A stretch of 39,166 nucleotides of DNA from Prevotella sp. (GTDB taxonomy: Bacteria; Bacteroidota; Bacteroidia; Bacteroidales; Dysgonomonadaceae): positions 1-39,166 of the forward strand of contig JAITVH010000026.1 in assembly GCA_031285905.1 (NCBI GenBank), read 5' to 3'. The notes below the pieces were generated by a model. The model worked only from the letters and a program-made list of their open reading frames with translations. It made no database searches and had not been told where the DNA came from. Below are positions 2,203-28,030 of this stretch, in pieces; the stretch's first letter is position 1, and each line of letters starts with the position of its first letter. The translations under genes were made by a program, and so were the position numbers.

Positions 2203-2213
2203 GATATTATTTG

Positions 2214-3512
2214 TTAAAGGATTAATACTAAATCTTGGGTTGCCTCTATGAGTTTGTCCATGTCCTCGAAGAGTTTCTTCGGAGTAACCCGGGCATAGAT
2301 TTGAGTGGTTTGTATGTTGCTGTGCCCGAGCATCCGGCTGATGGTTTCTATCGGAACGCCCTCCTCAAGCGTGATTAAACTGGCGAAGCTGTGCCGCCCT
2401 GAATGGAAGGAAATCCTCTTGTTTATATTACACAGCTCAGCAATCTCTTTGAGGTATTCATTGGTATTCTGGTTACTCTTTAGCGGAAAGATACTTCGAT
2501 TGTTTATGTCTTTTGCCTTTTCTATTTTTATTCTTGGTTTCGTTTCTATCTCACTCAATCTGACACCTGTATATTTCTCAATCAGCCTTAACGGTTTATC
2601 CAGCAGGGGAATATAGGAGATTGTGTTTGTTTTCGTCCGGCATATACGCAGCCTGTACCTGTATTCCGATTTATCTTTAGATTCATCTTTCAATATATCC
2701 GACAGTTTCAATGCCTTTATATCCGAGAAAGACAAGCCTGTATAAGAACTGAACACGAAAGCATCCCTGACTGTATTTAATCTGCGGGTAATAAATTCTT
2801 TTTCAGTGACACTTTTCAGTTCCTCCTCTGTCAGGTACACAGGCTCTTTCTTCTCTATATGGAAGCGGAAAAGATTAAACGGGTTTACCTGTATCAATCC
2901 TGTCTTCTGCGCAAAGTTCATTACCGAGGCAAAGCGCTTCATATACTTGATGGCTGTATTATTGCTGCACCTGTACTTCTTCCTCAGAAACAGGTAAAAC
3001 TTCTCTAAGAACCACAGGTCTATCTTCTGGATATGGATATCCCGCACCTTGTACTTCAATTCCATAAACTCAAACAGCCTGTCCAGTGTCAGCTTGTAGA
3101 TATTCGCAGTCGCCGTACATATATTCCTTCCGGCCTTCGAGCGGTAGATTTTTACCTGCTCCCTGAACTGGTAGCTGAGGAGCGTTTCTTCTCCAGTAGC
3201 CAGAAAAGCCTGCCTGAGCCGGTGGACGGATACATATTGCAGGGATTCCGACAGCCGGATATAATGCTGCTGTATATCTTTGCGGATAGTATCCAGCTGC
3301 CTGTTGACAGCTTCGCTGTACTGGTCATTCCCTATAACCCTTTTTGTCCTGATATCCCATAAGGCGGGATCGATGCTTAGCCTACAGGAGAACTGGGCCT
3401 GCTCCCCGTTAATAGTCAGCCGGACCATAATGGTAGCCAGTCCTGATTTTCTGACATCGTTCTTCTTTACCAGGAAGAGAATGCAAAAGGTATTCCTTGC
3501 TGTACGCTGCAT
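2214..3512 (-). CDS. Tyrosine recombinase (integrase), IntDOT-like
   Basis: A 432-residue recombinase with an N-terminal arm-binding domain (~5-95), a core-binding domain (~115-215) and a catalytic domain (~225-420). The C-terminal motifs SFHSGRHSFASL and MLGHSNIQTTQIYARV supply HxxR, His and the Tyr nucleophile. The first-Arg position reads SSYTGLSFSD, with Ser instead of Arg, as reported for IntDOT (Ser259). It is first of a three-gene minus-strand unit (this gene, the 400-aa integrase, the RhuM-like protein). The sequence diverges clearly from its neighbour, so the pair is not a recent duplication. Tandem recombinases are frequent in Bacteroidales mobile elements. Confidence 0.9.
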   Translation of the reverse strand: MQRTARNTFCILFLVKKNDVRKSGLATIMVRLTINGEQAQFSCRLSIDPALWDIRTKRVIGNDQYSEAVNRQLDTIRKDIQQHYIRLSESLQYVSVHRLRQAFLATGEETLLSYQFREQVKIYRSKAGRNICTATANIYKLTLDRLFEFMELKYKVRDIHIQKIDLWFLEKFYLFLRKKYRCSNNTAIKYMKRFASVMNFAQKTGLIQVNPFNLFRFHIEKKEPVYLTEEELKSVTEKEFITRRLNTVRDAFVFSSYTGLSFSDIKALKLSDILKDESKDKSEYRYRLRICRTKTNTISYIPLLDKPLRLIEKYTGVRLSEIETKPRIKIEKAKDINNRSIFPLKSNQNTNEYLKEIAELCNINKRISFHSGRHSFASLITLEEGVPIETISRMLGHSNIQTTQIYARVTPKKLFEDMDKLIEATQDLVLIL

Positions 3513-5733: not shown

Positions 5734-6507
5734 TTATTCTTCATTAGATTGTAACATTTTTTGAGTTTCTTTAACACGGTATGACTGTCCGTTCATGTTA
5801 ATCAGATATGCTTTATGCGTGAGCCTGTCGACCATTGCAGCCACCAGTACCTTATCCTTAACTATCTCCCCCCATCTACTAAAAGCTAGATTCGTAGTAA
5901 TAATAGTTGTTTTCTTTCCGGCTCTGAGCGATAAATGATTAAATAATAGTTCCCCACCTTCTTTATCACAAGAGACATATCCGAACTCGTCACAGATGAC
6001 CATGTCATACCTTTGGAAGCGTAGTTCGAGCTGTCTTAGACTTTTCTGGGATCGGCATTCCCTGATTTGAGTAAGCAGTCTTGGAACAGATGTAAAAAAG
6101 ACGGTATATCCCTCCAGGCAGGCTTTAATACCCAAACCTATAGATATATGTGTCTTGCCTGTACCCGGGTTACCGCAAAATACGATATTACGTCCATCCT
6201 TAATAAACTCCAGGGTTTCAAGTTCCGGCAATGCTGTTTGTGCATCTTTAGGCAGTTCTTCCCTTACCAGTTCCTGAAGGTACTTTAGTTCGGGGAACCC
6301 GGCTATCCTGATCCGCTGTTTGCGTCGAGCCTCGATACGCATGTCCATTTCTTTGGTTAATAGCTGGCATATCAATGCCCGGTACGACCAATTCTCATCG
6401 GTTGCCAAAGTAATAAAGTCATCAAGTTCATCCCGCAGAACAGGCAGCTTAAGCTCTTTGGCATAGTTAAATACTCTTTCTTTTTCGTTCAGGTTTTCCA
6501 TTTGCAT
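5734..6507 (-). CDS. istB: IS21-family helper ATPase IstB
   Basis: A 257-residue AAA+ ATPase of normal IstB length. Walker A is GNPGTGKT (112-119), Walker B is ICDEFG (171-176), and an N-terminal IstB-specific domain spans ~1-95. IstB assembles as an ATP-dependent oligomer on target DNA and activates the transposase IstA. Its start overlaps the last codons of an istA remnant by 19 bp, the usual istA/istB coupling. Because istA is otherwise gone, this is an orphan helper that could act only with an IstA supplied elsewhere. It may also start at Met3. Confidence 0.9.
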   Translation of the reverse strand: MQMENLNEKERVFNYAKELKLPVLRDELDDFITLATDENWSYRALICQLLTKEMDMRIEARRKQRIRIAGFPELKYLQELVREELPKDAQTALPELETLEFIKDGRNIVFCGNPGTGKTHISIGLGIKACLEGYTVFFTSVPRLLTQIRECRSQKSLRQLELRFQRYDMVICDEFGYVSCDKEGGELLFNHLSLRAGKKTTIITTNLAFSRWGEIVKDKVLVAAMVDRLTHKAYLINMNGQSYRVKETQKMLQSNEE

Positions 6508-7901: not shown

Positions 7902-7912
7902 CATTTTATCAG

Positions 7913-7986
7913 TGATCCGAGCGGGATTCGAACCCACGACCCACAGCTTAGAAGGCTGTTGCTCTATCCAGCTGAGCTACCGGACC
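7913..7986 (-). tRNA. tRNA-Arg (anticodon UCU)
   Basis: A 74-nt cloverleaf on the minus strand. The acceptor 5' end is GGTCCGG, the D-arm is GCTCAGCTGGATAGAGC, and the anticodon arm ACAGC-CTTCTAA-GCTGT has TCT at 34-36. The T-arm contains GTTCGAATC and the discriminator is A. No CCA is encoded. It reads AGA codons. Its 3' end faces phage-type fragments and repeats, suggesting past use as an integration site. Confidence 0.95.
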
Positions 7987-8120: not shown

Positions 8121-9536
8121 TCAAAATTTTACCCACACTGCAACTTTACCATCCTTGATAGTAAAATTCCCATTTCCATCCTTATCAATCACAACTTTAT
8201 CTTTAATATTACCAGTCAAATCAAACCATTGCTGACCAGCACGCTTCTTTCCTACATTCATAATTTTATTTCCACTCATTCCATTAGAGATGAGAAGTGC
8301 CAAACCAGAATCCGGATGTTCATTATCTCCCGCGCGCACAAAACCAACTACTGCGAGATCATCAAAGTAATCTTGTTGTTTCCCGAATGCATATTTCTGA
8401 CGGGTATGTATCAATATTTCAATTATTGTTTGATGCAGTGATTGCTTTCCCGATATATCATAATAGTCTCCATAAAAAATGCATGGATAGCCTTTCTCCA
8501 TCAATAATATTAATGCATAAGCAGAAGGTTTGAACCAGTCTTCAATTTGAGATTCCAAGGAACTTCCCTTCTGAGAATCATGATTATCAACAAAAGTCAC
8601 AGCATGATCGGAAGATATAGAAATAAGCGTCCCTTGAAGAAGTTGTCGCATATCGTATTTCTTGCCTTGCTGCGATGCCGCAAACATATTATAATGAAGC
8701 GGCACATCAAAAAGATCAATACATCCATCTACCGCTCCAAGATATCTTCCTAAGGAATCAAGATCTCCGCTCCAATATTCCCCTACAGCATAAAATTCAT
8801 CGCCCCTCTCCTTTCTCACACTTTCGAGAAATTGTTTGACAAACTGATCGCTCATATGCTTTATAGCATCAAGACGCATACCATCCAAATTTAGTTCTTT
8901 AGACACCCATGCTCCCCAGCGGTTCAGTTCTCCAACTACTTCGGGATGGTCGAGATCGAGATCGTTTCCGAGCAGGAAGTCATAATTACCATTCTCGGAA
9001 TCTACTCCCTCACTCCATGACTTATTTTCTCCAAGTATTCTATATATGCCGCTTTTTTTAACCGCATCATTATAGTCCGTTCCTGAAAAATGATACCAGT
9101 GCCATTCAAAATCGGAGTACTTTTTATCCCTTCCCGGGAAATTATATCCAGTCCATCCCTGTATCTCAAATGGCTGGGAAATATCTTCTGTTCTTTCTTC
9201 GGGATTAACTTCTACTACTTCAAATCGCTCAGTATAATCTCCCCATGATTTATGGTTCATCACAGCATCCAGATAAACGGATATTTTATATTTATGCAAT
9301 TCATCTATCATATCCTGCAATTCCTTCTTGGTGCCATATTTTGTCCTGACAGTATTTTTTTGATCAAACTCTCCTAAATCAAAAAGATCATATGTCGCAT
9401 ATCCTTCATCCTGTTGCTCATCTGCCTTATAAGCAGAGGGTCGGCGGTTCGAATCCGTCAACGTCCACTTGAAAATCAAAGACTTATGAGAAATCGCAAG
9501 TCTTTTTTCTTTTATATGTACACACAATTTGCACAC
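8121..9536 (-). CDS. GH13 alpha-amylase, 5' end replaced
   Basis: A 471-residue open frame. Residues from ~35 on are a cytoplasmic-type GH13 alpha-amylase: YATYDLFDLGEFDQ, YLDAVMNHK, DGMRLDAIKH (nucleophile D223), GEYW (acid/base E253) and FVDNHD (D320). The C-terminal beta domain is present. The normal N-terminus, about 50-60 residues with the first strand of the (beta/alpha)8 barrel and an MQYFEWY-type motif, is missing. Residues ~1-34 are translated from the antisense of a tRNA 3' half and its terminator on the + strand. The enzyme is therefore probably not functional although its frame is open. It has no promoter of its own. Confidence 0.8.
   Translation of the reverse strand: MCKLCVHIKEKRLAISHKSLIFKWTLTDSNRRPSAYKADEQQDEGYATYDLFDLGEFDQKNTVRTKYGTKKELQDMIDELHKYKISVYLDAVMNHKSWGDYTERFEVVEVNPEERTEDISQPFEIQGWTGYNFPGRDKKYSDFEWHWYHFSGTDYNDAVKKSGIYRILGENKSWSEGVDSENGNYDFLLGNDLDLDHPEVVGELNRWGAWVSKELNLDGMRLDAIKHMSDQFVKQFLESVRKERGDEFYAVGEYWSGDLDSLGRYLGAVDGCIDLFDVPLHYNMFAASQQGKKYDMRQLLQGTLISISSDHAVTFVDNHDSQKGSSLESQIEDWFKPSAYALILLMEKGYPCIFYGDYYDISGKQSLHQTIIEILIHTRQKYAFGKQQDYFDDLAVVGFVRAGDNEHPDSGLALLISNGMSGNKIMNVGKKRAGQQWFDLTGNIKDKVVIDKDGNGNFTIKDGKVAVWVKF
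9421..9467 (+). pseudogene. 3' half of a tRNA (anticodon-loop onward) at the amylase junction
   Basis: The anticodon arm is TCTGC-CTTATAA-GCAGA (9421-9437), with TAT at 34-36. A GGGTC variable loop, T-arm GGCGG-TTCGAAT-CCGTC (9443-9459), acceptor 3' strand AACGTCC (9460-9466) and discriminator A follow. No D-arm or acceptor 5' strand precedes it; the sequence upstream is the amylase gene in antisense. A factor-independent terminator follows, as after a real tRNA gene. Isolated tRNA 3' ends are typical att remnants of integrative elements. By position the anticodon is UAU (Ile), but the fragment is not functional. Confidence 0.75.
9478..9508 (+). terminator. Terminator behind the tRNA 3' fragment
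   Basis: An 8-bp stem, AAAGACTT (9478-9485) with AAGTCTTT (9498-9505), and a 12-nt loop, ending in a T-run on the + strand. It marks the native downstream end of the tRNA gene whose 3' half is left here. Confidence 0.75.
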
Positions 9537-9713
9537 AACTTTTGAGATACAAAGAAATGGTTTGAAAAATATTGCAACCTAAATTTCTTTTCCGGCTAAG
9601 GTAATTTTGCATATAGAATCTTCTTATTTCTTTTAGATATTCAACTACTATGAGAAATCCGAAACTAAAATGATTAGTACAAATGTTTGTTTTATCAAAT
9701 TAAGGATTTCACC

Positions 9714-9962
9714 CTAAGCCTTATTATATTTCCGCAATAAATCTTTCGGGTCGAACAGAAAAGCATAATATTTCCGGTCTTGATATGTAAAGGTAGCAGT
9801 CTCTTTCCTGAAATAATATCGAAGAATTTCTAAAGACAAATGGTTTGCTTCTTCAACAAAGGCTAGACCTCTTTTGAAATTTACACCAAATTCCGAGCAT
9901 AGGAATATCAGCAGTTGAGTTAACAGTCCTTTCCCTTTAAATTCAGGTTTTACTATAACAGG
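9714..9962 (-). pseudogene. C-terminal fragment of a GNAT-type acetyltransferase
   Basis: A frame without a start codon runs from a stop at 9963-9965 to the stop at 9714-9716 (82 residues). It begins PVIVKPEFKGKGLLTQLL, the GNAT motif A acetyl-CoA loop (Q/RxxGxG/A-like KGKGL). A helix and the strand YYAFLFDPKDLL near the end complete the half-domain. The N-terminal half is absent. It is a remnant left between the tRNA fragment and the Fic gene. Confidence 0.55.
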
Positions 9963-10179
9963 TCATTATGCAGAATGCATAGGTGATTAATAACCAATCA
10001 AATGACGATTTTTTAGGTACAAACCCCAAAAGAAGCGGCAAATACATTCTATTTACTGTCAACCACTTACGTAAATATACGTGGTTTTGGTGAAAAGGCG
10101 AAATATTTAATGGAAAGTTCTGAAAGTATTATCCAGAATTTCATTTTTAAATAAAAAATTTAGCATTTAATTTTTATTG
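9963..10179. other. Intergenic stretch between GNAT remnant and Fic promoter
   Basis: No convincing gene. A short + strand reading (VNHLRKYTWFW near 10050-10090) looks protein-like but is interrupted by stops and was not identified. Confidence 0.4.
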
Positions 10180-10244
10180 GGTAGTACTACCTGACAAAAA
10201 CTACCCTGTTAACTACCCTAATTTAAAATTATTTTCTACTTTTG
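10180..10244 (+). promoter_or_regulatory. Fic promoter with four CTACC/GGTAG half-sites
   Basis: TACTTTTG at 10237-10244 matches the TAnnTTTG -7 box and ends 5 bp before the ATG at 10249, so the mRNA may be nearly leaderless. Upstream lie GGTAG (10180-10184) and CTACC (10187-10191), which form the 12-bp palindrome GGTAGTACTACC, plus two direct CTACC copies (10201-10205, 10213-10217). The sites overlap the expected -33 region. Binding there would probably repress, and the Fic protein carries its own C-terminal HTH. Confidence 0.6.
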
Positions 10245-10248
10245 CTTT

Positions 10249-11187
10249 ATGTCATATGAACCACCTTATAAGATCACGCCTAAAATTATCGACCTTGTTT
10301 CTAAGATAAGCGAAGCAGTGGGTAGTTTTTATACTCAAGAGGGATTACGATTGCATCGAATAAACCGTATAAAAACTATTCAAGGCTCTTTAGCTATTGA
10401 GGGTAATACCTTGACGACAGATCAAATTACAGCTATATTGGATGGCAAGCCTGTTGTTGCACCTATTAATGAAGTACAGGAGATTCGAAACGCCATTAAA
10501 GCCTACGAATTGCTTGAAACGCTAAATCCGAACAGCCTGGATGACCTTTTGAAAGCACATCTTACAATGGAAACCGGATTGATTGATGATGCAGGGCGTT
10601 TTAGGTCGGGAGGCGTTGGTGTGGCTTCGGGTGAAGAAATTATTCATTATGCACCGCCAGCTGAGCGTGTACCACAGTTAATGAAAGAGTTATTCCTTTG
10701 GCTAAACAGGACAGAAGAGCATCCATTGATAAAAAGTTGCATCTTCCATTATGAGTTTGAATTTATACACCCGTTCTCGGATGGTAACGGACGAACAGGT
10801 AGACTCTGGCAAACGCTTATCCTTGCCAATTGGCGACCTGTATTCAAAAATCTACCCATTGAGAATATCGTTTATAAATATCGTAAGGAGTATTATAAAG
10901 CTATTGCCATTAGTGGAGGAGAAGATGGTTGCACTCCGTTTATAGAGTTTATCTTGGGAGTAATTGACGAAACTTTGGCTCTCGAAAGTAACACTCCACG
11001 CTCGACACGTGACAAAATCATAGAACAGATACATAATAATCCCAAGATTACCCGCAACGAGTTAGCTTCAATATTGGGTATAACTTCCGATGGAGTTAAA
11101 TATCACCTTCAAAAAATGATAACAGAAGGTGTTATTGTCCGTAATGGTTCGGCTAGGGGTGGATATTGGGAGGTTGTGAGGGATTGA
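10249..11187 (+). CDS. Fic-family protein (class II, with C-terminal winged HTH)
   Basis: A 312-residue Fic protein, probably an AMP-transferase that modifies target proteins with ATP. The core motif HPFSDGNGRTGR is at 174-185. An N-terminal inhibitory helix carries SLAIEGN (47-53), fitting [S/T]xxxE[G/N], which defines intramolecularly inhibited class II Fic proteins. In these, Glu51 would contact Arg of the GNGRTGR loop. Residues ~255-312 form a winged HTH (TRNELASILGITSDGVKYHLQKM). The operator-like half-sites in its promoter suggest autoregulation. No separate antitoxin gene is seen, which is consistent with internal inhibition. The start agrees with family N-termini. It is the first intact gene of the defence-like block. 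Confidence 0.92.
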   Translation: MSYEPPYKITPKIIDLVSKISEAVGSFYTQEGLRLHRINRIKTIQGSLAIEGNTLTTDQITAILDGKPVVAPINEVQEIRNAIKAYELLETLNPNSLDDLLKAHLTMETGLIDDAGRFRSGGVGVASGEEIIHYAPPAERVPQLMKELFLWLNRTEEHPLIKSCIFHYEFEFIHPFSDGNGRTGRLWQTLILANWRPVFKNLPIENIVYKYRKEYYKAIAISGGEDGCTPFIEFILGVIDETLALESNTPRSTRDKIIEQIHNNPKITRNELASILGITSDGVKYHLQKMITEGVIVRNGSARGGYWEVVRD

Positions 11188-11284
11188 TTATATGCGTCAT
11201 TTTAAGGATATATCGCCTTCTACTGCTATACATGAATTAAGGGAAGTAATTGAAAAAAATATTTAGGCAAAAATGGTGTTGGGA

Positions 11285-11318
11285 TATAACCATATATCGT
11301 TATAAATAGTTAATTTTG
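11285..11318 (+). promoter_or_regulatory. Promoter and inverted repeat upstream of the PIN-domain gene
   Basis: TAATTTTG (11311-11318) matches the -7 consensus and lies 20 bp before the ATG at 11339. Directly upstream TATAAC (11285-11290) and GTTATA (11299-11304) form an inverted repeat with an 8-bp spacer, positioned where a repressor would block the -33 region. Confidence 0.5.
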
Positions 11319-11338
11319 AGATAAAAATTACGCAAAAC

Positions 11339-13561
11339 ATGGAAAACAATATATATAATAAAGCTGTCACCTATAGTTTATTATCTCATATAAGCAATTC
11401 TGGAATTTTATCTAGAGGTCCTCTTGATATCTTTATACCAATTGTAAAAAAAGCCTTACATTTTTTATATTCGGGGAGAAACGGAGAATATAAATCTAAT
11501 AAAATAGATGAAATAAGAGATCGAATCAATATTGAATATGGGATTGATATTCCTAAAATTGTTTTACTGAAAATACTTAAACAGATTGCTCTTGATGTAA
11601 ATACAGAGCGTGAATATTTCCAAGTTTTTAATGATGGAGCTTTCTGGATAAAAGATTTTATTTTCGTAGATTTTGATGAGCAAATTGAAGAAGCTAAAAT
11701 TAACATTAAAAACCTACAAAATCTTTTTATGGAATTCTGTAAAATACAGAATATAGACTATGAAGAGAATAACTGTGTCATTAGATTTATTGAGAAACAT
11801 AAACTCTCGATGTCAAAATATTTATCTCACAAAAATACTATTCCAGATAATAAAGATTTTCTGATTGCTGCGAATTTCATCAATTTTTTTAAAGAAAATG
11901 GTAGTATCTTTTATGAACAAATTAAAAGAATTTATTTAGGCTCTGTTTTGTCAATGCGTCTTGATTATGAACCAAATATTAAAGATAATAATATTCAATT
12001 AACATTATTGTTAGATACAAATTTTATTGTAAGTCTTATTGACCTCAATACAAAAGAGTCTACATACACATGTAATACTCTTCTTGATATTTGTAAAAAA
12101 TTAAATGCTTCTTTTTATGTTCTTCCTGAAACAATTGAAGAAATTAAAAAGCTCCTTTACTATAAATCGGAGACACTTGATGATGTCATGATATCTAAAT
12201 ATATAAATGAAGAAGATATATATCGAGCTTGTGAAAGAAGAAATCTATCTAAAGTGGATTTAGACAGGATTGCTGACAATATTGAAGATATTCTGTCTCA
12301 AAAAAGAATTAATATTGTAGGAAATACAGATAAATTAAAAAACAAAGCAAAATATAGTGAAGATTATAAAAATCTAAAGAAAGTAAGAAATACTGATTTA
12401 GCAGCCCTCCATGATGCAATGGCGTTAATATATGTTAGAGAAAAAAGAGGTAATAAAATTAGAGATTTTGAAAAAGTCAACTGTTGGTTCGTTAACAATT
12501 CTTTTTCTCAAGAATCTATGGATAATGAATCCAATATACAGACTAATAATTATCAACCTGAATCTATCAAAGTTGATGATTTATTAAATATATTATGGCT
12601 TAGTTCTCCTGTTATAAATAAAAGTATAAATAATAATGAACTTTCTGATATTGGATTAACATCTTTAATTGCTTTTTCATTAAACGAATCTTTGCCTACA
12701 GCTCGAATTATAAGGGAGTTAGACTCAAATATTGAAAAATACGCAAAAGAGGAAATTACAGAAAAAGATATACATTATTTGTCTATAAGAGTAACGAGTA
12801 GACAACTCAATAGTATTGATGTCGAAGAATTAAATAAATTAGCAAAAACTAATTCGTCTGAGTTTAATATACGACTGAAAGATGAAGTAAAAAAACAAGA
12901 GGAGATTGAAAAAAGAAAAAGTGAAAGGTTTGAACAAGTAATATTAGCTTTTAATGACAAAATGCAAGAATTAGATAGCAAAAAAGAAGAATTGGAGCAA
13001 ATTAAGAAAAAAACAGAAGAGATAAGCCTAATAAAGATTAATGAAGCTTTACAAAAAACGATACAAGCCGAAGAGGAAAATAATAAAATTAACAAAATAA
13101 GAGAAGAAGAGAAAAAGGAGAGAAAGCTTTTAAAAGACACAATAAATGAAATTGATAAACTTACTTCTCAAAAAGAAAGATTGGAGGAAGAAAGAGAACA
13201 ATCCGTTTCAATGTTCAAATATTGGGTAGTAATTATTTTAGAATTTGTTTGTTTTGGTATCCTTTTAATAGGTATTGTATACTATTTATTTATATACAAA
13301 GGAGATGTTACTTTGGAAAGCATGTTTAGTGATAATCCATTTTGGTTAATATTGGTAGGAGTTTCTTTTCTAGCAGTTATCGTAAGAATTTGTTCTTCTT
13401 ATTTAAGTTCTCCAAAAATAATTTATAGAAAACTAAAAAAAGAACAATACATCCATTGGGAAGAAAACCATTCTGAATATCATAAAATTTTGAGCCGCTT
13501 AACTGATTTAGAAAATACGAAAAAAAATATCCTAGATAAAACAGATATTACTACATCTTAA
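11339..13561 (+). CDS. PIN-domain, coiled-coil, two-TM membrane protein of unknown function
   Basis: A 740-residue protein. An uncharacterised N-terminal helical domain spans ~1-210. A PIN-like nuclease domain spans ~220-390: LTLLLDTNFIVSLIDL with D226, acidic E264/E267/E268, and NTDLAALHDA with D353/D359. A linker follows, then a long Lys/Glu-rich coiled coil at ~510-622, two TM helices (~627-652 and ~666-686) and a short C-terminal coiled coil. PIN domains are Mg-dependent RNases or flap nucleases. Tethering one to the membrane through a coiled coil suggests a sensor-effector, for example abortive infection, but this is inferred. It is strongly AT-rich even for this window and sits between Fic and a DISARM-like helicase locus. 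No family name is recognised. Confidence 0.75.
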   Translation: MENNIYNKAVTYSLLSHISNSGILSRGPLDIFIPIVKKALHFLYSGRNGEYKSNKIDEIRDRINIEYGIDIPKIVLLKILKQIALDVNTEREYFQVFNDGAFWIKDFIFVDFDEQIEEAKINIKNLQNLFMEFCKIQNIDYEENNCVIRFIEKHKLSMSKYLSHKNTIPDNKDFLIAANFINFFKENGSIFYEQIKRIYLGSVLSMRLDYEPNIKDNNIQLTLLLDTNFIVSLIDLNTKESTYTCNTLLDICKKLNASFYVLPETIEEIKKLLYYKSETLDDVMISKYINEEDIYRACERRNLSKVDLDRIADNIEDILSQKRINIVGNTDKLKNKAKYSEDYKNLKKVRNTDLAALHDAMALIYVREKRGNKIRDFEKVNCWFVNNSFSQESMDNESNIQTNNYQPESIKVDDLLNILWLSSPVINKSINNNELSDIGLTSLIAFSLNESLPTARIIRELDSNIEKYAKEEITEKDIHYLSIRVTSRQLNSIDVEELNKLAKTNSSEFNIRLKDEVKKQEEIEKRKSERFEQVILAFNDKMQELDSKKEELEQIKKKTEEISLIKINEALQKTIQAEEENNKINKIREEEKKERKLLKDTINEIDKLTSQKERLEEEREQSVSMFKYWVVIILEFVCFGILLIGIVYYLFIYKGDVTLESMFSDNPFWLILVGVSFLAVIVRICSSYLSSPKIIYRKLKKEQYIHWEENHSEYHKILSRLTDLENTKKNILDKTDITTS

Positions 13562-13957
13562 TTTTCCTCTTTCAACAACTGTTATACATCCTAGATACAA
13601 CAAGAATAGAAAGGGTAAGACTTTTTCCTGAGAATACGCTAGTCTGAATGACTACTTGAAAGATTTTTAGAAAAATCGATAGATTTCTGGTCTTGCATGT
13701 TTATTTTAATATGACAATTATTAAAAAAAAGTCGGATTAGAAAAATAATTAAAATATAGTATGCCTTTATGGGTATTTGATGTATTTCTGTAAGCAAGTA
13801 ATCTATCTTTTTGTTAAAATTTTGATACCATACTAGAATTTTACTATTTCTATCTTATTTAATAGGTCCACCTTTTAACTTCCATATATCTTTTATAAAA
13901 TTTTAAAGAGCTGAAAACAAATCTTATATTTGCATAATTAGGTAAATAAATTAAATT
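13562..13957. other. Intergenic region with the helicase promoter
   Basis: About 400 bp, AT-rich, with no gene. TATATTTG at 13925-13932 fits the Bacteroidetes -7 box, 25 bp upstream of the helicase ATG. The helicase thus seems to have its own promoter instead of reading through from the PIN-domain gene. Confidence 0.55.
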
Positions 13958-16303
13958 ATGCAGGCACTGACTACTCATCAGCACATTATTTCGGACTACA
14001 AAAACTTTCTGAAAAGTTTCATTAATATTTCTGATGAAAGAATTAAGAAGAAAGTAGAAGAGGAACTTAATAGAAACTCTTATCTGCCTGAGCCTTTAAT
14101 ACAATTTAATCCTGCATATAAAAAGGGGGAATCTCTTGCAGATTTTCCACCAAATAAAATACACCCTGATCTGATAAAAATTATTGGAAGCTTCAACCTT
14201 TATCACCATCAAGTAGAAGCCATAAAAAAAGGAGTAAACGGAAAAGGTTTTATTGTAACTTCTGGTACGGGGTCGGGAAAGTCGCTGACTTTCCTTGCCA
14301 CTATTTTCAATGATATACTTCACAATCCGGGTAATGGAATTAGAGCCATTATTGTATATCCAATGAATGCATTAATTAACTCACAGGAAGAAGAAATAAA
14401 AAAATACGAAATTAATTATTTAAAATCCAAAATACCTGCAAATTATCTATTGCAAAATACAAACCTTTCTCTTGATGAGCAGATCCTGGAATTGAAAGAA
14501 ATAACTAAAACTTCATTTCCAATCACTTATAGAAAATATACAGGACAGGAAAGTAATGAGCAAAAAAGCGAAATAAGAGAACAAGCACCTGACATTATTC
14601 TAACAAACTACATGATGTTGGAGCTTATCATGACTCGTTATGACGAAAGAGAACTACGGAAAAGTATTTCACGTAACCTTAAATATCTTGCATTTGATGA
14701 ACTACACACCTATCGGGGGCGGCAAGGCGCTGATGTGTCAATGTTAATAAGACGTATTAAAAATTATGCAGGAAATCAAATTATAACTATTGGCACTTCC
14801 GCTACTATGAGTTCCGAGGGAGATGCAATTGAGAAAAAAAAAGCAGTAGCAGATGTAGCAAACATTATTTTTGATTGTAACTATTCGCCCAGTCAAATAA
14901 TAGGGGAACAACTCGAAACATCAACAGGATTTACTGGAACAATTCCTTCTGCTGAAATATTAATAAAAGCTATAAATGAAACAATTTCTTTAACTAGAAA
15001 CGTAAGTGATTTCATTGATAATCCATTGATCATTTGGTTGGAAAGCCGAATAGCTCTGAGTAATGTAAATGGATTCTTTGAAAGAAACCAACCTATGACT
15101 TTATCTCAGATTGCAGAGCTACTTTCTAAAGATTCTGGTGAACTAATAACTAAATGTATAGAAACGATTCAGAAACTTCTCATATGGATTGAACAGATTA
15201 ATGCCAATATTGCAAAACAATTCCGTAAATCATATTTACCATTCAAATTACATCAATTTATTTCCCAAACAGGAACGGTAAAAGTAACCCTCGACGATAA
15301 ACAAAACAGACTTATCACCTTAGACGATGAGTTATATATAAAGAGCAATAAAAAAGACATACCTCTCTATCCAGTATTATTTAGTCGTTATTCGGGAGCT
15401 GACTTTATTTGTGTAAAGCTGATAAATAATCAAATCTTGCCACGTGATCCGGATAATCAGGATGACCAACCACAAAAAATCACGCAGGAAGATATCAAGG
15501 CAGATAAAGATACCGGAAAACAGAAAAGAATTCTTGATATTGATGATTTTCCTTACGGCTACCTAATTTTACAGGAAGACGATGAAGAGGATATATGGCA
15601 GTCATCCGATATTGATTATCTACCAGGTTCATGGTTCACCAACACAAAAAAATTTGGTCAACAAATAAAGAATTTCTACGAACACCGTTTGCCCCGATTG
15701 CTATATTTCAATCAAAACAGAACATATTCATGGCAACAAACTGAAAAACTTCCACTTAAAGCTTGGTATATACCTGCATATCTGCTTTTCGACCCCACTT
15801 CCGGAATAATATTTGACCTGAAAACCAATGAAAATACCAAACTTACCCGTTTAGGGAATGAAGGACGTAGTTCCGCCACCACTATATTAGGAGCTAATAT
15901 ACTGAAAACGTTACATAAGAAGAATACATTACCCGAAAATCAGAAATTCCTGAGTTTTACTGACAACCGGCAGGATGCTTCTCTGCAAGCCGGACATTTT
16001 AATGATTTCTTTACCATTGCCCGCTTGCGTTCTGCCATATATAATTCTGTGAAAAAATTTCCTCAGGGACTGGGTTGTGATAAAATCGGACTCGAAGTTT
16101 ATAAGGAACTTAATCTACAGGAAAAAGAATATGCAAGGTATACATCAACCAATCCTGCATGGCCTGATGAAAAAAATATAAAGGCAATACAAAAATATAT
16201 TCTGATACGGATATTATATGATCTGAAATTAGGCTGGCGTTATACAACGCCGAATCTTGAGCAAACAGCATTGGTGGAAATTGGATACAACCGTTTGGAT
16301 TAA
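13958..16303 (+). CDS. DISARM-like DEAD/DEAH helicase, N-terminal half (ends at in-frame TAA)
   Basis: 781 residues forming the first RecA domain and following insert of a large SF2 helicase. It has a Q-like motif LYHHQVEAI (81-89), Walker A TSGTGSGKS (101-109), motif Ia YPMNAL (134-139), a DEAH variant DELH (247-250) and motif III GTSATM (279-284). Motifs V and VI are absent here. They occur in the next frame segment, which continues in the same phase after a single TAA at 16301-16303. The 16 codons after the stop (FCQQESFFEKISWAKK) read as coding. The original gene was therefore one ~1,750-codon helicase resembling DISARM DrmA or other DUF1998-type phage-defence helicases. Alone, this half lacks a complete motor. 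Confidence 0.85.
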   Translation: MQALTTHQHIISDYKNFLKSFINISDERIKKKVEEELNRNSYLPEPLIQFNPAYKKGESLADFPPNKIHPDLIKIIGSFNLYHHQVEAIKKGVNGKGFIVTSGTGSGKSLTFLATIFNDILHNPGNGIRAIIVYPMNALINSQEEEIKKYEINYLKSKIPANYLLQNTNLSLDEQILELKEITKTSFPITYRKYTGQESNEQKSEIREQAPDIILTNYMMLELIMTRYDERELRKSISRNLKYLAFDELHTYRGRQGADVSMLIRRIKNYAGNQIITIGTSATMSSEGDAIEKKKAVADVANIIFDCNYSPSQIIGEQLETSTGFTGTIPSAEILIKAINETISLTRNVSDFIDNPLIIWLESRIALSNVNGFFERNQPMTLSQIAELLSKDSGELITKCIETIQKLLIWIEQINANIAKQFRKSYLPFKLHQFISQTGTVKVTLDDKQNRLITLDDELYIKSNKKDIPLYPVLFSRYSGADFICVKLINNQILPRDPDNQDDQPQKITQEDIKADKDTGKQKRILDIDDFPYGYLILQEDDEEDIWQSSDIDYLPGSWFTNTKKFGQQIKNFYEHRLPRLLYFNQNRTYSWQQTEKLPLKAWYIPAYLLFDPTSGIIFDLKTNENTKLTRLGNEGRSSATTILGANILKTLHKKNTLPENQKFLSFTDNRQDASLQAGHFNDFFTIARLRSAIYNSVKKFPQGLGCDKIGLEVYKELNLQEKEYARYTSTNPAWPDEKNIKAIQKYILIRILYDLKLGWRYTTPNLEQTALVEIGYNRLD

Positions 16304-16351
16304 TTTTGCCAACAGGAAAGCTTTTTTGAAAAAATATCATGGGCAAAAAAA

Positions 16352-19213
16352 ATGACATCTGAACAAAGACAGATGATGTTAACCCAGATATTAAATTATT
16401 TCCGCACGTCCTTTGCTTTTGATCATATTTATCTGACAGAACAGCGGGAAGAAGTAGAAAATGAACTCAAGAATTTACTGGACGAAAAGAAACAATGGTC
16501 ACTCGATTTTGATGAAAAAGTCGAAGCACCTTTCATATTGATGCCACGCCCCTTAGGCAAAATAAAAACCCGTGAATATACCTCTTCTATTGGCCCCATG
16601 AGCTATTTGGGTAAATACATGAAAAGATTAATCACAAAATATACTCTATATCAACCAAAACTGGACGAAGTACAAAAAACAATTGAAGAGATTTGCAACA
16701 TTCTTGAACAAGGACATTTCTTAAGTAAAGTAACTATAAAATCATTAAAAGAAGAAAGATTTGGCTATCGAATTCGTGTAGATTACCTTTTATGGAAGCT
16801 TGGTGATGAAAATAATATATTGCAGGACGAAGTACGTTTCACCAAATACAAGCAAACCACACTTAAACCAAACAGTTACTTTAAGAATTTCTATAAACAG
16901 GATTTCAAATCTTTTGGTAAAATTATCGAAGGGAAAGAACACACGGGACAATTAGGTAATACCCAGCGAATTGAACGCGAAAGTGAGTTTCGTAAAGGAA
17001 ATCTCTCCGCCTTGTTCTGCTCGCCCACAATGGAACTTGGTATCGACATTAGTCAACTTAATATTGTACACATGCGAAATGTCCCCCCTCGCCCCGATAA
17101 TTATGCACAAAGGAGTGGACGTGCAGGGCGAAGCGGACAATCAGCCCTGGTATATACCTTTTGTTCCAAAGGCTCGCCACATGACCGGAATTATTTCAAG
17201 TCACCAGCCAAAATGATACATGGGGTAGTTGTACCACCCCGATTGGATATTACAAACGAAGAACTGATAAGAAGCCATCTTGATGCCTTTATCTTGATGG
17301 AACTTGAAGTTTACATGAAATACTCTGTAAATGAAGTAATTGACATAACCCGTTCCAGATTACCCATAAAAGCCGAGATACTAGAGAAAATAGAAGAGTT
17401 AGTTAAACACAATACCCTGCAATGGATAAACCAGTTCAGAAAAATTACAGATAGTGTATCCGGCATTCAAAAGACAAACTGGTATAATGACAACTGGCTT
17501 CTGCAACAAGTATCCGGTTTTAACAAACGGCTTGATAAAGCCTTTGATCGGTGGCGGATATTATATACCAATGCAGAGAAAAATCTGAGAGAAGCACATG
17601 TAATTATCTCAACTCCAAACCATCCCGGTATTAAAGATGCCCGTCGCACACAGGCCATAATTTTACGTCAACGGGATTTATTACTCAATAAAGACAATGC
17701 ATCTTCCGGTAATGAATCTGAATTTTATGTTTTCCGCTATCTGGCTTCCGAAGGCTTTCTGCCCGGGTATAATTTCACCCGTCTGCCTGTACGTACATTT
17801 GTCGGCACCAGTAAAGCTGCCGGACAGGGAGAATATATTTCCCGCCCGCGTTTTATTGCATTAAAAGAATTTGGGCCTAATAATCTTATTTATCACAATG
17901 GCAATAAATATAAGATAACCAAAATGCAGCTTAATCAGGAAAAAGGAGAATTACTGCAAACACTTAAAATTTCATCCGAAACCGGTTATGTATTTATAGG
18001 ACAGGAAGCAAAAAATGTAAACAACGATCCTATAACAAATAAGCCTTTCCAATCTGTTGATTCTTTTTTATTATGCAAAAATGTTGTTGAGTTGAACGAA
18101 TCAGAAGCCCAAATAGACGAACGTATTTCATGTAATGAGGAGAACCGTGTTTCGCAAGGTTATGAAATAGGACAATACTTCTCGTTTTCCAAAGGATTTG
18201 CTAACACAGAAAGAGCTACCATACAAGCTGGGGGACATCCTTTACTGCAAATCATATACGATCAATCAGCAACGTTGTTACAAGTGAACAACAAATGGAA
18301 AATCGCCAAAGAACCCGATTTTCCGATAGGGAAGATATCGGGGCGCTGGAAAACAAGAAATGCAGATTTAGATGGATCTTCTGACCCCGTTGAAATGGTA
18401 AGAATCTACACGACCTCTACTTCTGACATACTCTACATTCAGCCCATCGAACAACTAAAACTGTCTGAGTCAGGAGTTATCACCCTTGCATTTACCCTTA
18501 AGCAAGCCATAGAAAACACCTATCAGGTAGAAGAAAGCGAGATAAATGTATGGCTGATGGGGAAAAGCGAAAGCCGTAATATACTGATATATGAATCCGT
18601 AGAGGGAAGTCTCGGCATACTCAAAGACCTGCTTCAAAATGTCCGGAAGTTACAGGAAGTATTCCGCAAAGCCTATAATATACTCGGTTTCGACCTGCAA
18701 ACCCATGCCGATACACGTCCCGATTCACCCCGGGCATCTTATGACGATATACTATCATATTACAACCAACAATACCATGACAAACTAGACCGACACAGTG
18801 TGAAAGAAGCCCTCGAGATGCTTATGCAATGTGAAATAGATAACCAGCAAGGCGACCGCACCCTGGAAGGACATTACCAGTATCTGCTCGAAAAATACGA
18901 CCGTAACTCCGATATGGAGCGACATTTGCTTGACTACTTGTATCAAAATGGATACAAACTACCAGATAAGGCACAAGTAGATATTACAGACCTCTATGTC
19001 AACGCCGACTTCGTATACAAACTGACCGACAACCAGTTTACCCTCATCTTTTGCGACGGCAAACCCCATGACGACCCGCATATAAGCCAACAAGACCGCA
19101 TAAAACGTCACAACTGCCGCGATGCCGGATACGAAGTCATTGTATGGAATTACCGCGAATCGATTGAAGACTTTGTAAGTCGCAATAAACACATTTTCAG
19201 AAAAGTAAGATAA
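16352..19213 (+). CDS. DISARM-like helicase, C-terminal half with nuclease-like end
   Basis: 953 residues from an internal Met; the coding frame really continues from 16304. It holds the second RecA domain: EHTGQLG (~196-202), motif V SPTMELGIDI (224-233) and motif VI QRSGRAGRSGQ (253-263). A long central region resembles DUF1998-type helicases. The C-terminal end reads ADFVYKLTDNQFTLIFCDG, then DRIKRHNCRDAGYEVIVW. This has the pattern of a Vsr/DUF559-like endonuclease domain, but catalytic residues are not certain. Without the first RecA domain it cannot bind ATP normally. It abuts the SNF2 gene (TAA then ATG, no gap), so they were one operon. Confidence 0.85.
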   Translation: MTSEQRQMMLTQILNYFRTSFAFDHIYLTEQREEVENELKNLLDEKKQWSLDFDEKVEAPFILMPRPLGKIKTREYTSSIGPMSYLGKYMKRLITKYTLYQPKLDEVQKTIEEICNILEQGHFLSKVTIKSLKEERFGYRIRVDYLLWKLGDENNILQDEVRFTKYKQTTLKPNSYFKNFYKQDFKSFGKIIEGKEHTGQLGNTQRIERESEFRKGNLSALFCSPTMELGIDISQLNIVHMRNVPPRPDNYAQRSGRAGRSGQSALVYTFCSKGSPHDRNYFKSPAKMIHGVVVPPRLDITNEELIRSHLDAFILMELEVYMKYSVNEVIDITRSRLPIKAEILEKIEELVKHNTLQWINQFRKITDSVSGIQKTNWYNDNWLLQQVSGFNKRLDKAFDRWRILYTNAEKNLREAHVIISTPNHPGIKDARRTQAIILRQRDLLLNKDNASSGNESEFYVFRYLASEGFLPGYNFTRLPVRTFVGTSKAAGQGEYISRPRFIALKEFGPNNLIYHNGNKYKITKMQLNQEKGELLQTLKISSETGYVFIGQEAKNVNNDPITNKPFQSVDSFLLCKNVVELNESEAQIDERISCNEENRVSQGYEIGQYFSFSKGFANTERATIQAGGHPLLQIIYDQSATLLQVNNKWKIAKEPDFPIGKISGRWKTRNADLDGSSDPVEMVRIYTTSTSDILYIQPIEQLKLSESGVITLAFTLKQAIENTYQVEESEINVWLMGKSESRNILIYESVEGSLGILKDLLQNVRKLQEVFRKAYNILGFDLQTHADTRPDSPRASYDDILSYYNQQYHDKLDRHSVKEALEMLMQCEIDNQQGDRTLEGHYQYLLEKYDRNSDMERHLLDYLYQNGYKLPDKAQVDITDLYVNADFVYKLTDNQFTLIFCDGKPHDDPHISQQDRIKRHNCRDAGYEVIVWNYRESIEDFVSRNKHIFRKVR

Positions 19214-19795
19214 ATGACAGGAATCATAACCAATCAGGATATAAAACCCGGAATGCTCGTTTATTTCCGGTACCGCCAATGGGTAATACTGCCCTCAGCA
19301 GATAAGAATATTCTAATGCTTAAACCCATTGGAGGTTCCGATGCCGAAACAACAGCCGTGTACCGGCCCTTGCAATTGCCATCGGACACTATGGAAAAAG
19401 CAGAGTTTCAATACCCTACAGCGGATGATTTGGCCGACTTCCAGTCAGCCAAACTTCTGTATAATGCCGCCAAACTATCTTTCCGCAACGCCTGCGGACC
19501 CTTCCGGTGCATGGGGAAACTCAGTTTCCGTCCACGTTCCTATCAGGTAGTTCCACTGGTAATGGCTCTTAAACAAGATATAGTAAGACTAATGATTGCC
19601 GACGATGTAGGCATTGGAAAAACCATCGAAGCACTCATGATTCTCAAAGAACTGATGGAACGTGGAGAAATAGAACGATTTGCTGTTATATGCCTGCCAC
19701 ACCTCTGCGAACAATGGCAGAAAGAATTGAAGGACAAACTCGACATAGATGCCGAAATCATCCGTTCGAGCACCATTGCAAACTGTGTTATATAA
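19214..19795 (+). pseudogene. SNF2-type helicase (DrmD-like), truncated after the first motifs
   Basis: 193 residues of the N-terminal end of a SNF2-family helicase normally near 1,000 residues. It shows LSFRPRSYQVVPLVMAL (Q-motif equivalent, ~103-119), Walker A ADDVGIGKT (129-137) and motif Ia-like VICLPHLCEQWQKEL (158-172). The DEAH box and the whole second RecA domain are gone. Similarity ends near residue 188 and the frame stops four codons later in AT-rich non-coding DNA. The motif set matches DrmD of class 1 DISARM. In intact systems a methyltransferase and further genes accompany it, and none is present here. It directly follows the large helicase. Confidence 0.8.
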
Positions 19796-20538
19796 TGTTA
19801 AATTTGTATTTTTAATCTGCAATAAAGGGTATTCAGAATATAAAAAAACAATCTTTTTTACTCAAAGATTAACATATAAAATCTAGATAAATATTTTCAA
19901 AGAAAAAAGATTAACATTAATTAGCATTTTTGATATTTTCGAATGATCTTGAAGAAATGGATTCTTCTTTTAATTATTTATGAATATTAAAAAGTTAAAC
20001 ATAGAAAACACCTATAAATAAAAACAACTGTTAAACAGATGATTATCCTTTTAAATTTGTCTTTTTAACTTTTTGGAAAATTGAAAAATAAGAAATATGT
20101 GTATCTATATCTGCTGGGTAATAATTGATCGTTTCTATTTTGTTTTGGAATTAATACATTTTAATATAACAATATAGATCACCTAAAAGTTCAAAAAAAC
20201 ATTCTGGAACATTGTTTAAACATTATAATAAAAATGAATGTTAAATTAACAGTGACTTATAGAAATTAAACTCCAGGCTCATGTAATTAATTATTTCGGA
20301 CAAATTCATTTGTATCTGAGAATTCAGATATAAAAATTTTGTGTGAAAAGGAGGTTATGAGTTTATTGATATACAAATTATTAATAATTAGAAAAGAGGA
20401 ATAAAAAGAAACGACAATAGATAAAGGCCTGAATGAAGCTGATTGCATTAAAGATCAAATCGCAAATAAAATAAATGAATAATTAAAATCAGAAGCGGAG
20501 GCAGTTTAACCAATATCAATAATAAAAAAAAGAAGAAA
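19796..20538. other. Non-coding AT-rich region between the helicase remnant and the lipoprotein gene
   Basis: About 740 bp with no gene. It has an 18-bp near-repeat (TTAAATTTGTATTTTTAA at 19798-19815; the same with C for A at 20051-20068). Both copies contain TAAATTTG, a -7 box match. It also has the 12-bp exact repeat AAAGATTAACAT at 19864-19875 and 19906-19917 (42 bp apart), with a 10/12 copy at 19991-20002. The 3' part probably carries the leader of the lipoprotein gene. Confidence 0.5.
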
Positions 20539-21396
20539 ATGAGAACTTCACTAGCTATTTTTTTTATGGTATTTGTAGGTTTTTTAATGACTGCCTGCCA
20601 AAACGACAATGATGACTTGAATGTCGCTACCACTGAAGGTTCGGAAGAAAAAATATCTGTAAAGTTTGAACTGGATGCCAGTGCTATCGGATACGATGTT
20701 GCCACCAAAGCAGCGACACAATTTGCTCCGACGTACACAAAAGACGGATTCAGTACTTATGCTTTCCGCCAGATAGAGGGTGATACTGATTATGTGTTTG
20801 AAAAAACAGTAAGTCTTACAAATCTAAACTATGTTCCTATGACTAAGAAATTGACAGGTACCGATTTATTACCTATCGGAACTTATAAATTTTTCCCTGC
20901 TTACGGATTAGCTAACCAATCGTCACTCTTGACTATCCTGACATGGAGTTCTCAGATATTAAGTAATGACTTTACCATTAGATATGGTGGAGGTGCAGGA
21001 TTGACAGGGATATTTTTGCCAATAATCATCGGCAATGTAGGTGCCCTTCAGTTTTACGATATGGGGCTCACCAATACTGCTAACCAAACAGTGGAAACAT
21101 CACTGCAAAGAGCTGTATCGCGTGTCAATCTTATGTTTATCAAAGCAATTAAAAGTGCAGGAGAAGATGGAGAAACCATCTATACAAAAACAGCATATCC
21201 CGAAGGAAAAGATGTATTCAAGCAAAAAACGATAGAAACAATACAACTTCGTTACAAAAGGCTTAACAACCTGATGAGTTTCTTCGGGACTGACCTGACT
21301 ACTACAGTTTTCAATGTGGAGGACATCAATCTGAATCTGGCCAATGGCATTATACTGAAAGGTGAAAATCCGACAGAAACCTTTATTGGTAAATAA
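20539..21396 (+). CDS. Fimbrillin-family (Mfa/FimB-like) lipoprotein
   Basis: 285 residues. A signal peptide II ends in LMTAC (lipid-anchored Cys20), followed by the acidic stretch QNDNDD, the type of sequence that routes Bacteroidetes lipoproteins to the cell surface. A segment LQRAVSRVNLMF (~195-206) matches the RAVxRV hallmark strand of Mfa-like/FimB fimbrial anchor and accessory proteins. Pilus assembly or anchoring is inferred from that family. No other fimbrial gene is adjacent, so it is an isolated or leftover member. The C-terminus stops early (TETFIGK) compared with larger family members and could be truncated. Confidence 0.6.
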   Translation: MRTSLAIFFMVFVGFLMTACQNDNDDLNVATTEGSEEKISVKFELDASAIGYDVATKAATQFAPTYTKDGFSTYAFRQIEGDTDYVFEKTVSLTNLNYVPMTKKLTGTDLLPIGTYKFFPAYGLANQSSLLTILTWSSQILSNDFTIRYGGGAGLTGIFLPIIIGNVGALQFYDMGLTNTANQTVETSLQRAVSRVNLMFIKAIKSAGEDGETIYTKTAYPEGKDVFKQKTIETIQLRYKRLNNLMSFFGTDLTTTVFNVEDINLNLANGIILKGENPTETFIGK

Positions 21397-21480: not shown

Positions 21481-22329
21481 ATGGAATTAGGATTAGATAT
21501 TGGCTATAGAATGATGAGTATGGCCATGGTAAAGAACAATGAGATACTCAATTTTGTAGATAAGCCTATTGCAACAACTAAAAGGGATTGTAACAGGACA
21601 ATTATGGATAAGATGTTGGCGTCGATTCATAGCGTAGCTAAATCGCGGATAAAAGGAATCGGGTTAAGTCTGCCTTCACGTGTAGATGAGAAGAAAGGTG
21701 TGATGTACGATATCAATAATATACCCTACTGGAAAGGGATGGGGATAAAAAAAATATTGGAAGACGAATTCAATACCAAGGTGTGGGTTAATAATGATAT
21801 TAATTGCTTTGCTTTAGGGGAGAAATATCATGGAATGTGTAAAGATTTTAAAGATATAGTGTGCATTTCGTTAGGTCCTAATGTAGGAGCGAGTATGATA
21901 GTGAATAATAAACTGTATCTCGATAATAAGTATGCATTTTATAATGCACAATGTTTATCTGTACCTTGCTATGATTGTGTTCGTATATATCGTAGTAGTT
22001 TCATACGGACAATAGAAGATCTCCATTTTTTTATAAAGGGTTTTAAAGATGAAATGATGGATGATCCCTCTCATGAAATCTGGAATGAGTTTGGTGTCCA
22101 TGTGGGTCGACTCGTATCTATTTTGCTATGCAATTACGATCCTCAGGTTATAGTATTAGGTGGAAATCTAGCGCGGCATTATGTGCATTTTGCAGAATCG
22201 ATGGATAAATACCTGGAACAATTTATTCACCCGCAAGTACTGCTAAATATGATAATTTTTGCATCCATCGTTGATCATCAACAAGCGTTGGGAGCAACTT
22301 CAATGGTCAAACAACAAATACTGATATAA
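21481..22329 (+). CDS. ROK-family protein, degenerate zinc motif
   Basis: 282 residues with the actin-like ATPase fold of ROK sugar kinases and regulators. Visible motifs are LDIGYRM (phosphate 1, normally DIGGTK), VNNDINCFALGE with the catalytic-type Asp106, LGPNVGASMIVNNKL (phosphate 2) and VLGGNLA (adenosine). The segment that should hold GHxxxxxxxxxCxCGxxGCxE instead reads NAQCLSVPCYDCVRIYR. It lacks the His and the CGxxGC spacing, so zinc binding and kinase activity are doubtful. There is no N-terminal HTH, so it is not a ROK repressor. It lies 85 bp after the lipoprotein and may be co-transcribed. Confidence 0.75.
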   Translation: MELGLDIGYRMMSMAMVKNNEILNFVDKPIATTKRDCNRTIMDKMLASIHSVAKSRIKGIGLSLPSRVDEKKGVMYDINNIPYWKGMGIKKILEDEFNTKVWVNNDINCFALGEKYHGMCKDFKDIVCISLGPNVGASMIVNNKLYLDNKYAFYNAQCLSVPCYDCVRIYRSSFIRTIEDLHFFIKGFKDEMMDDPSHEIWNEFGVHVGRLVSILLCNYDPQVIVLGGNLARHYVHFAESMDKYLEQFIHPQVLLNMIIFASIVDHQQALGATSMVKQQILI

Positions 22330-26641: not shown

Positions 26642-28030
26642 ATGGAAAACCAAAATAGAAAAGAAATAAGCCGCCGAAATTTCCTGAAAACACTAGGGAC
26701 AGGATCTGTGGCTACAGGCGCTGTAATGGTCGGGTGTAAACCCAATAATACTGTTTCGGCAGAAGGAGGCATGATAGGCGAAGTGCCAACAGATAAAATG
26801 ACTTACCATATCAATCCGCATACGGGAGATGTTGTATCGCTGCTTGGATATGGCTGTATGCGTTGGCCTTTACGAAAAGACAGTAACGGTGAAGATGAAG
26901 TCGATCAAGATACAGTAAATGAACTTGTTGACTATGCTATTGCTCATGGGGTAAATTATTTCGATACAGCCCCTGTATATGTACGAGGATGGTCTGAGGT
27001 TGCAACAGGTAAAGCGTTGAGTCGCCATCCACGCGATAAATATTATATAGCTACCAAGATGTCGAACCATAGGGCAGATGCCCCACGAAGCTTTGAGGCT
27101 GGAGTAGCCATGTATCACAAATCCATGCGGGATCTGCAAGTAGATTATCTTGATTATTACCTGTTGCATGGTATTGGACTGGGAGGAATGGAAGATTTAC
27201 GGAAACGCTTTTTCGATAATGGCTTACTCGATTTCTTGTTTAATGAACGTCGAGCTGGAAACATTCGCAATTTGGGCTTTTCTTATCATGGAGAAATAGA
27301 GGTGTTCGATTATTTGCTTGCCATGGATTATCAATGGGATTTTTGTCAGATACAGCTTAACTATATAGACTGGCTTCATGCTTCAGGATGGAATACTAAT
27401 GCCGAATACCTGTTGGGTGAACTGGAGAAAAAGAATGTACCGGCTATTGTTATGGAACCACTTTTAGGCGGGCGTCTGTCGAGGTTGAGTTCGCAGGCAC
27501 TTAATCTGTTAAAAGAACTGCGTCCTGAAGAAAGTGCTGCCTCATGGGCATTCCGCTATGCAGGAACTCCTCAAAATGTATTGACTGTTCTCAGCGGCAT
27601 GGTGTATATGGAGCATTTACAGGAAAACATCCGCTCCTATTCTCCGCTCGATCCTATTACGGAAGAGGAATATACTACTCTGGAAAAGGTTACAGATATT
27701 ATGATGAATGACGATTATGTGCAATGTACCGAGTGTCAGTACTGTATGCCTTGTCCTTACGGGGTAGATATTCCAAGTGTATTCGGCCATTATAATCGCA
27801 TTATAAGTGCGGGTAAACGCTTGAATAGTTCAAAAGATGAAAACTATAAAGAGGCACGCCGTGCATTTCTTGTCGGGTACGACAGGAACGTGCCTAAACT
27901 CCGTCAGGCTAGCCATTGTATAGGCTGTGATATATGTAAACCACATTGTCCACAAACAATTGATATTCCGAACGAGATGCGCAGAATCGATCTATATACA
28001 GAACAGTTGAAGCAAAAGCTTGAATTTTAA
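26642..28030 (+). CDS. Tat-exported aldo/keto reductase with C-terminal Fe-S motifs
   Basis: 462 residues. A Tat-type signal (SRRNFLKTLG, residues ~10-19) is followed by a Cys in MVGCK. The aldo/keto reductase barrel spans ~55-350 with the tetrad visible: Asp and Tyr in YFDTAPVY, Lys in YYIATKM and His in YYLLHGIG. C-terminal ferredoxin-like motifs are CTECQYCMPCP and CIGCDICKPHCP. The family reduces or oxidises carbonyl substrates. The export signal and Fe-S clusters suggest electrons come from the neighbouring polyferredoxin instead of soluble NADPH (inference). It is the last gene of the cluster and is followed by the terminator at 28072. Confidence 0.9.
   Translation: MENQNRKEISRRNFLKTLGTGSVATGAVMVGCKPNNTVSAEGGMIGEVPTDKMTYHINPHTGDVVSLLGYGCMRWPLRKDSNGEDEVDQDTVNELVDYAIAHGVNYFDTAPVYVRGWSEVATGKALSRHPRDKYYIATKMSNHRADAPRSFEAGVAMYHKSMRDLQVDYLDYYLLHGIGLGGMEDLRKRFFDNGLLDFLFNERRAGNIRNLGFSYHGEIEVFDYLLAMDYQWDFCQIQLNYIDWLHASGWNTNAEYLLGELEKKNVPAIVMEPLLGGRLSRLSSQALNLLKELRPEESAASWAFRYAGTPQNVLTVLSGMVYMEHLQENIRSYSPLDPITEEEYTTLEKVTDIMMNDDYVQCTECQYCMPCPYGVDIPSVFGHYNRIISAGKRLNSSKDENYKEARRAFLVGYDRNVPKLRQASHCIGCDICKPHCPQTIDIPNEMRRIDLYTEQLKQKLEF

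Follow-up and report, generated by a model that had tools for sequence, protein, structure and literature searches.

In the 39,166-nucleotide stretch of Prevotella sp. DNA analyzed here (contig JAITVH010000026.1 of assembly GCA_031285905.1, positions 1 to 39,166; hereafter the window), a gene for an ArmC-like helicase of the YprA family is interrupted by an in-frame TAA codon. We consider it likely that the locus is a recently inactivated ARMADA Type I operon, predicted to be non-functional, as its three genes are not all intact in the window: ArmC contains the stop, ArmA is cut to 193 codons, and ArmB was not found. The features on which this reading depends are as follows.

13958..16303, forward strand: first part of the ArmC-like (YprA family) helicase gene; 781 codons and TAA, with RecA1 bearing motifs I–III and the first RecA2 strand (motif IV)
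16301..16303, forward strand: in-frame TAA, at residue 782 of the family alignment
16304..19213, forward strand: continuation of the ArmC frame; 969 codons and TAA, with the remaining RecA2 insertion, motifs V and VI, the MrfA-type C-terminal region, and a Vsr-like nuclease tail
16352..19213, forward strand: open reading frame (ORF) from the first ATG after the TAA; 953 residues
19214..19795, forward strand: ArmA-like (BrxHII/SNF2) helicase, truncated; 193 codons of ~940, with homology stopping after residue 189 (19780)
19781..20414, unstranded: stretch past the ArmA breakpoint; no ORF of at least 100 residues; the expected place of the ArmA remainder and ArmB

An in-frame stop in a single-chain gene

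The assembly bears out the stop reported in a preliminary description of this DNA, as the 781-residue ORF ends at 16301–16303. Beyond it the same frame reads FCQQESFFEKISWAKK and then runs from the ATG at 16352 through to the TAA that ends at 19213. The frame is thus continuous, as had been claimed, and the continuation is collinear with full-length homologues, the nearest of which is 88% identical. The 969-codon opening exceeds chance expectation, because 20 of the 26 window ORFs checked stay open for fewer than 50 codons past their own stops, and the runner-up (469 codons) is a separate gene at 26642–28030 in the same frame.

Of the 7,995 candidates scored in a protein search with the read-through frame, 6,206 matched. 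Among these, the best 120 listed are 1,687–1,769 residues long, the nearest listed keeps its 88% identity over the whole length, and 20 aligned sequences stay collinear through the stop. At the column of the TAA, all 80 intact aligned relatives have a sense residue. We also compared 81 related loci, made up of the best 80 of 466 genome-contig relatives, ranked by similarity, and one viral contig; only L024, L041, and L081 are partial matches. In 80 of the 81 loci, ArmC is one open frame over the matched range, in a gene of ~1,750 codons, the sole exception being L024, whose match contains a single stop, at codon 278. Within the phylum, matches occur in 27 of 395 genomes (this genome included, and some partial at contig ends), and all 29 are without an internal stop.

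The shorter homologues do not mark position 782 as a natural boundary. The ends of the 119 listed are spread over residues 550–1350, with one near 1750; every 50-residue bin between 650 and 899 holds 11 to 13, and there is no peak near 782. Among the matches listed, in a search limited to proteins of 430–1,367 residues, the 781-residue form was seen only for this contig; the next match is 56% identical. Checked in this way, the condition that the preliminary description set for its own refutation, homologues that are two genes by nature, told against a natural split. The single frame in 80 of the 81 loci, the stop-free phylum matches, and the spread of shorter ends led us to reject a natural two-gene arrangement, and the earlier suggestion of a natural split into two subunits falls with it. 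We likewise rejected the ATG at 16352 as a new start belonging to the second half, since the methionine in that column (Met 799) is not specific to this gene and is an internal residue in 18 of the 80 intact relatives. Viral contigs gave one relative (38%). Similar plasmid DNA was found in 29 records, none of which covers 80% of the query, and the matches among the rows listed are short, local, and in DEAD/DEAH helicase genes.

Position of the stop within the motor

The first part of the gene contains what we take to be motif I (14258–14284), motif II (14693–14713), and motif III (14792–14809), and the second part contains the presumed motifs V (17018–17050) and VI (17108–17131). The division of motifs between the two parts in the preliminary description therefore holds approximately. 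As the motif-IV strand (FLSFTDNRQD, 15947–15976) precedes the stop and motifs V and VI follow it, the interruption falls within RecA2 and not between RecA1 and RecA2. In the predicted structure the TAA maps to a confidently modeled helix of a ~300-residue RecA2 insertion, and the stop would divide RecA2 between two chains. Residues 324–381 of the model form a helix-helix-strand-strand arrangement that fits a winged helix and may or may not correspond to the MarR-like domain inserted in RecA2 of ARMADA Type I, a type also marked by a BrxA-like domain after RecA1 and a zinc-binding beta-barrel. At an E cutoff of 0.001, a Foldseek search with the RecA2 piece found no match; a second look did give RecA2 matches.

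The C-terminal 272 residues model well (mean predicted local distance difference test score of 91.5), and the model resembles an MrfA/DrmB-like region followed by a nuclease similar to I-Bth0305I. Pfam matches in the C-terminal region of 40 family members agree on MZB (40/40) and include DUF559 in 18. The window's last 101 residues alone gave no Pfam match, and when solved structures were searched with the sequence of the C-terminal part, nothing meaningful came up (best E 0.31).

Identity and condition of the operon

In the relatives the helicase gene is followed by an SNF2 helicase gene of ~940 codons and a methyltransferase gene of ~1,260–1,690 codons. This order is present in 15 of the 17 loci printed; in L028 the third ORF is in pieces, and in L102 the sequence ends. 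The methyltransferase is matched in 60 of the 61 loci with room for it, the exception being L090 despite 6 kb, and this third gene has Eco57I/MmeI and DrmMI matches. The published description gives ARMADA Type I the order YprA-like helicase (ArmC), BrxHII/SNF2 helicase (ArmA), and PglX-like methyltransferase (ArmB), with an ArmC that has a fused MrfA-type C-terminal region and a C-terminal Vsr nuclease (Bell et al. 2025, PMC12458937). Because the gene order in the relatives is the published one, we assign the operon to ARMADA Type I. The ArmC frame also has the fused MrfA-type (OB-CON-DUF1998) region and a Vsr-type nuclease domain at its C-terminus. By PADLOC scores the helicase is closer to DruE than to DrmA or DpdJ: DruE3 models are the best matches of both ArmC parts (149.9 bits, E 1.9e-44, and 146.9 bits, E 1.5e-43), and weaker matches are DpdJ in the first part (67.2 bits) and DrmA in the second (26.0 bits). 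The gene after ArmC (19214–19795) matches DpdE and DrmD.

The family appears to differ from Druantia, whose Type III has a DruH partner and PLD-like nuclease domains, in that the neighbors in the relatives are SNF2 and methyltransferase genes and the tail is Vsr/DUF559-like rather than a PLD pair. It also differs from DISARM (DrmA, DrmB, DrmD, DrmMI), in which the DUF1998 region (DrmB) is on a separate gene, whereas here the DrmB-like region shares a chain with the motor and is fused in one frame in 80 of 81 relatives; the window's stop lies ~400 residues before that region and not at a DrmA/DrmB border. The original label of "DISARM-like" was close but inexact: the models nearest to the helicase are those of DruE, the genes stand in the ARMADA Type I order, and by the definition in PMC12458937 the operon fits ARMADA Type I better than DISARM. 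In PADLOC-DB 2.0, ARMADA genes come under the names DruE, DpdE, and DrmMI, and annotation can be misled by this; its model PDLC02853, named DpdE, covers the ArmA of one relative (L025:14263-17088) end to end (E 5.4e-166).

The window's own copy departs from the family in all three genes, and the locus is likely a remnant of ARMADA Type I rather than a working member. Past residue 189 of ~940, ArmA reads NCVI and then stops, whereas an 85–86% identical fragment (P0243) continues there, a truncation that the preliminary description did not list; DNA similarity to the same genus resumes at about 20415. Apart from the window piece, a full-length ArmA query against the genome assembly found a single weak match, to a different helicase on C72 (38%, 98 residues). 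An ArmB query against the assembly found nothing; the tool used was without a positive control, though by tblastn that protein is matched in 60 of the 61 loci that have room for it. Of the 81 loci, 64 have a full ArmA, 13 have one cut by the sequence end, 3 (where the sequence ends) give no match, and 1 (L039) has a short one; among the matches listed no other contig has the 193-residue form. For ARMADA Type II, which was tested, deletion of any of four genes abolished protection, according to PMC12458937, and by analogy we infer that the locus would not protect even with a whole ArmC.

Other damaged or incomplete ARMADA-like operons were seen among the relatives, namely L024 with its inner ArmC stop, L039 with a short ArmA frame (12207–12743, 301 codons), L028 with its methyltransferase in pieces, and L090 without a methyltransferase match. 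A 179-residue SNF2-related fragment (P0354), named from Ralstonia pseudosolanacearum and present on 15 contigs, is 60% identical to the truncated ArmA, and truncated ArmA pieces may persist elsewhere.

Age, alternative explanations, and surroundings

Several points weigh against an inactivated operon. The evidence comes from a single metagenome-type assembly (173 contigs, 88% complete, 6.11% contamination) and not from reads. When changes are counted against the majority of seven outgroups, the window and its sister are much alike (13 versus 13 in the first part of ArmC, 24 versus 27 in the second). Where the seven outgroups share a fixed residue, the counts are 0 versus 4 in the first part and 7 versus 3 in the second; the latter, though small, leans toward relaxation of the second part. 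The core motifs of both parts are all intact. ArmC itself is thus without sign of long decay, and it is the stop, ArmA, and ArmB that argue for decay, with the essentiality result taken from Type II and not Type I. Because ArmC is not clearly faster than its sister, the lesion looks young, in keeping with the recent lesion that the preliminary description had listed among its options.

It is unlikely, though it deserves the most serious consideration of the alternatives, that the organism has an intact operon and that a mixed or chimeric assembly produced the stop, the ArmA junction, or both in error. The number of contigs and the contamination would suit such an error, as would a second abrupt shortening next to the locus, in the fimbrillin-like gene at 20539–21396, and the fact that neither the 781-residue nor the 193-residue form is listed from another contig. 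However, no matching ArmA remainder or ArmB lies on other contigs of the assembly, the contig runs some 19 kb beyond the junction with same-genus genes just after it, and the stop is one codon in an otherwise perfect 1,750-codon frame.

We regard as very improbable a functional split motor, in which both chains are made, the second by restart at ATG 16352 (48 bases past the stop), and come together as an active helicase-nuclease. In its favor, each frame is open and conserved, the motifs are all present, there is no clear acceleration, and YprA-type motors whose canopy is carried by a second chain do exist (DISARM DrmA/DrmB; PMC12458937). The predicted division, however, lies inside RecA2 in a folded helix rather than at the RecA2/canopy border, no other relative listed is split at the same place, and the partners are not intact. 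With RecA2 cut through, ArmA truncated, and ArmB not found, the functional two-subunit motor raised at the outset was not upheld. Slightly less credible again is the narrower proposal that the two translated halves form a split-RecA2 helicase-nuclease that works without ArmA and ArmB; if true, this would be an architecture not seen in the YprA family. Least probable of all is read-through or suppression of the TAA to give a full-length protein, for which the continuous frame and nothing else speaks. TAA terminates 20 of the 26 window ORFs, so a general suppressor would presumably be harmful, and the window's only tRNA gene encodes an ordinary tRNA-Arg.

The surroundings show further change. 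At 285 codons the fimbrillin-like gene is shorter than its counterparts of 394 and 396 codons in G416 and G409, two genomes of the same genus. The six ORFs (~7 kb) that separate it from a ROK-family gene in those genomes are replaced in the window by 84 bases (ROK at 21481–22329); this is either a second deletion or an assembly collapse next to the broken operon. No clean, complete empty site was found in three same-genus genomes, where the right flank (fimbrillin-like, ROK) is present and the left-flank amylase lies elsewhere, and a search for direct repeats from 9300 to 21000 gave only short, mostly AT-rich pairs, none of which we took as an attachment site. Upstream are two adjacent tyrosine recombinases (1000–3512), an IS21 IstB gene (5734–6507), and the tRNA-Arg (7912–7986), as expected of mobile-element surroundings. 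The region 10249–13561 encodes a Fic protein with a winged helix and then a 740-residue protein, at 26–29% G+C, and is perhaps a separate defense cassette. At E 0.001 the 740-residue protein matches nothing in Pfam, PADLOC, or NCBIfam, and it has no match in 102 loci; by eye it has a PIN-like look with a coiled coil and a membrane part.

Returning to the inactivated operon, its history may be sketched as follows. The operon was probably acquired horizontally in this lineage, which fits the absence of ArmC from the 100 other genomes of the family searched (0/100). When intact it would have combined ArmC (a YprA-like motor with a fused MrfA-type canopy and a Vsr-like nuclease), ArmA (a BrxHII/SNF2 motor), and ArmB (a PglX-like methyltransferase), and by analogy with the published Type II work it would stop phage DNA while leaving the cell alive. 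A rearrangement ending near 19780 would then have removed ArmB and four fifths of ArmA, and ArmC would have acquired the nonsense change, although the order of these events is inferred. If transcribed, the locus would yield a 781-residue chain with RecA1 and one RecA2 strand and, should translation restart at 16352, a 953-residue chain with the remainder, neither of which would be a whole motor.

What appeared to be a candidate split-motor system is thus settled as an ordinary nonsense lesion in an otherwise single-chain family. It presents a dated-looking loss of ARMADA, in which the helicase-nuclease sequence is still fresh and the SNF2 and methyltransferase arms are gone. If confirmed by reads, half-lost operons of this kind could show which component goes first, and whether the ARMADA nuclease-helicase is tolerated without its methyltransferase.
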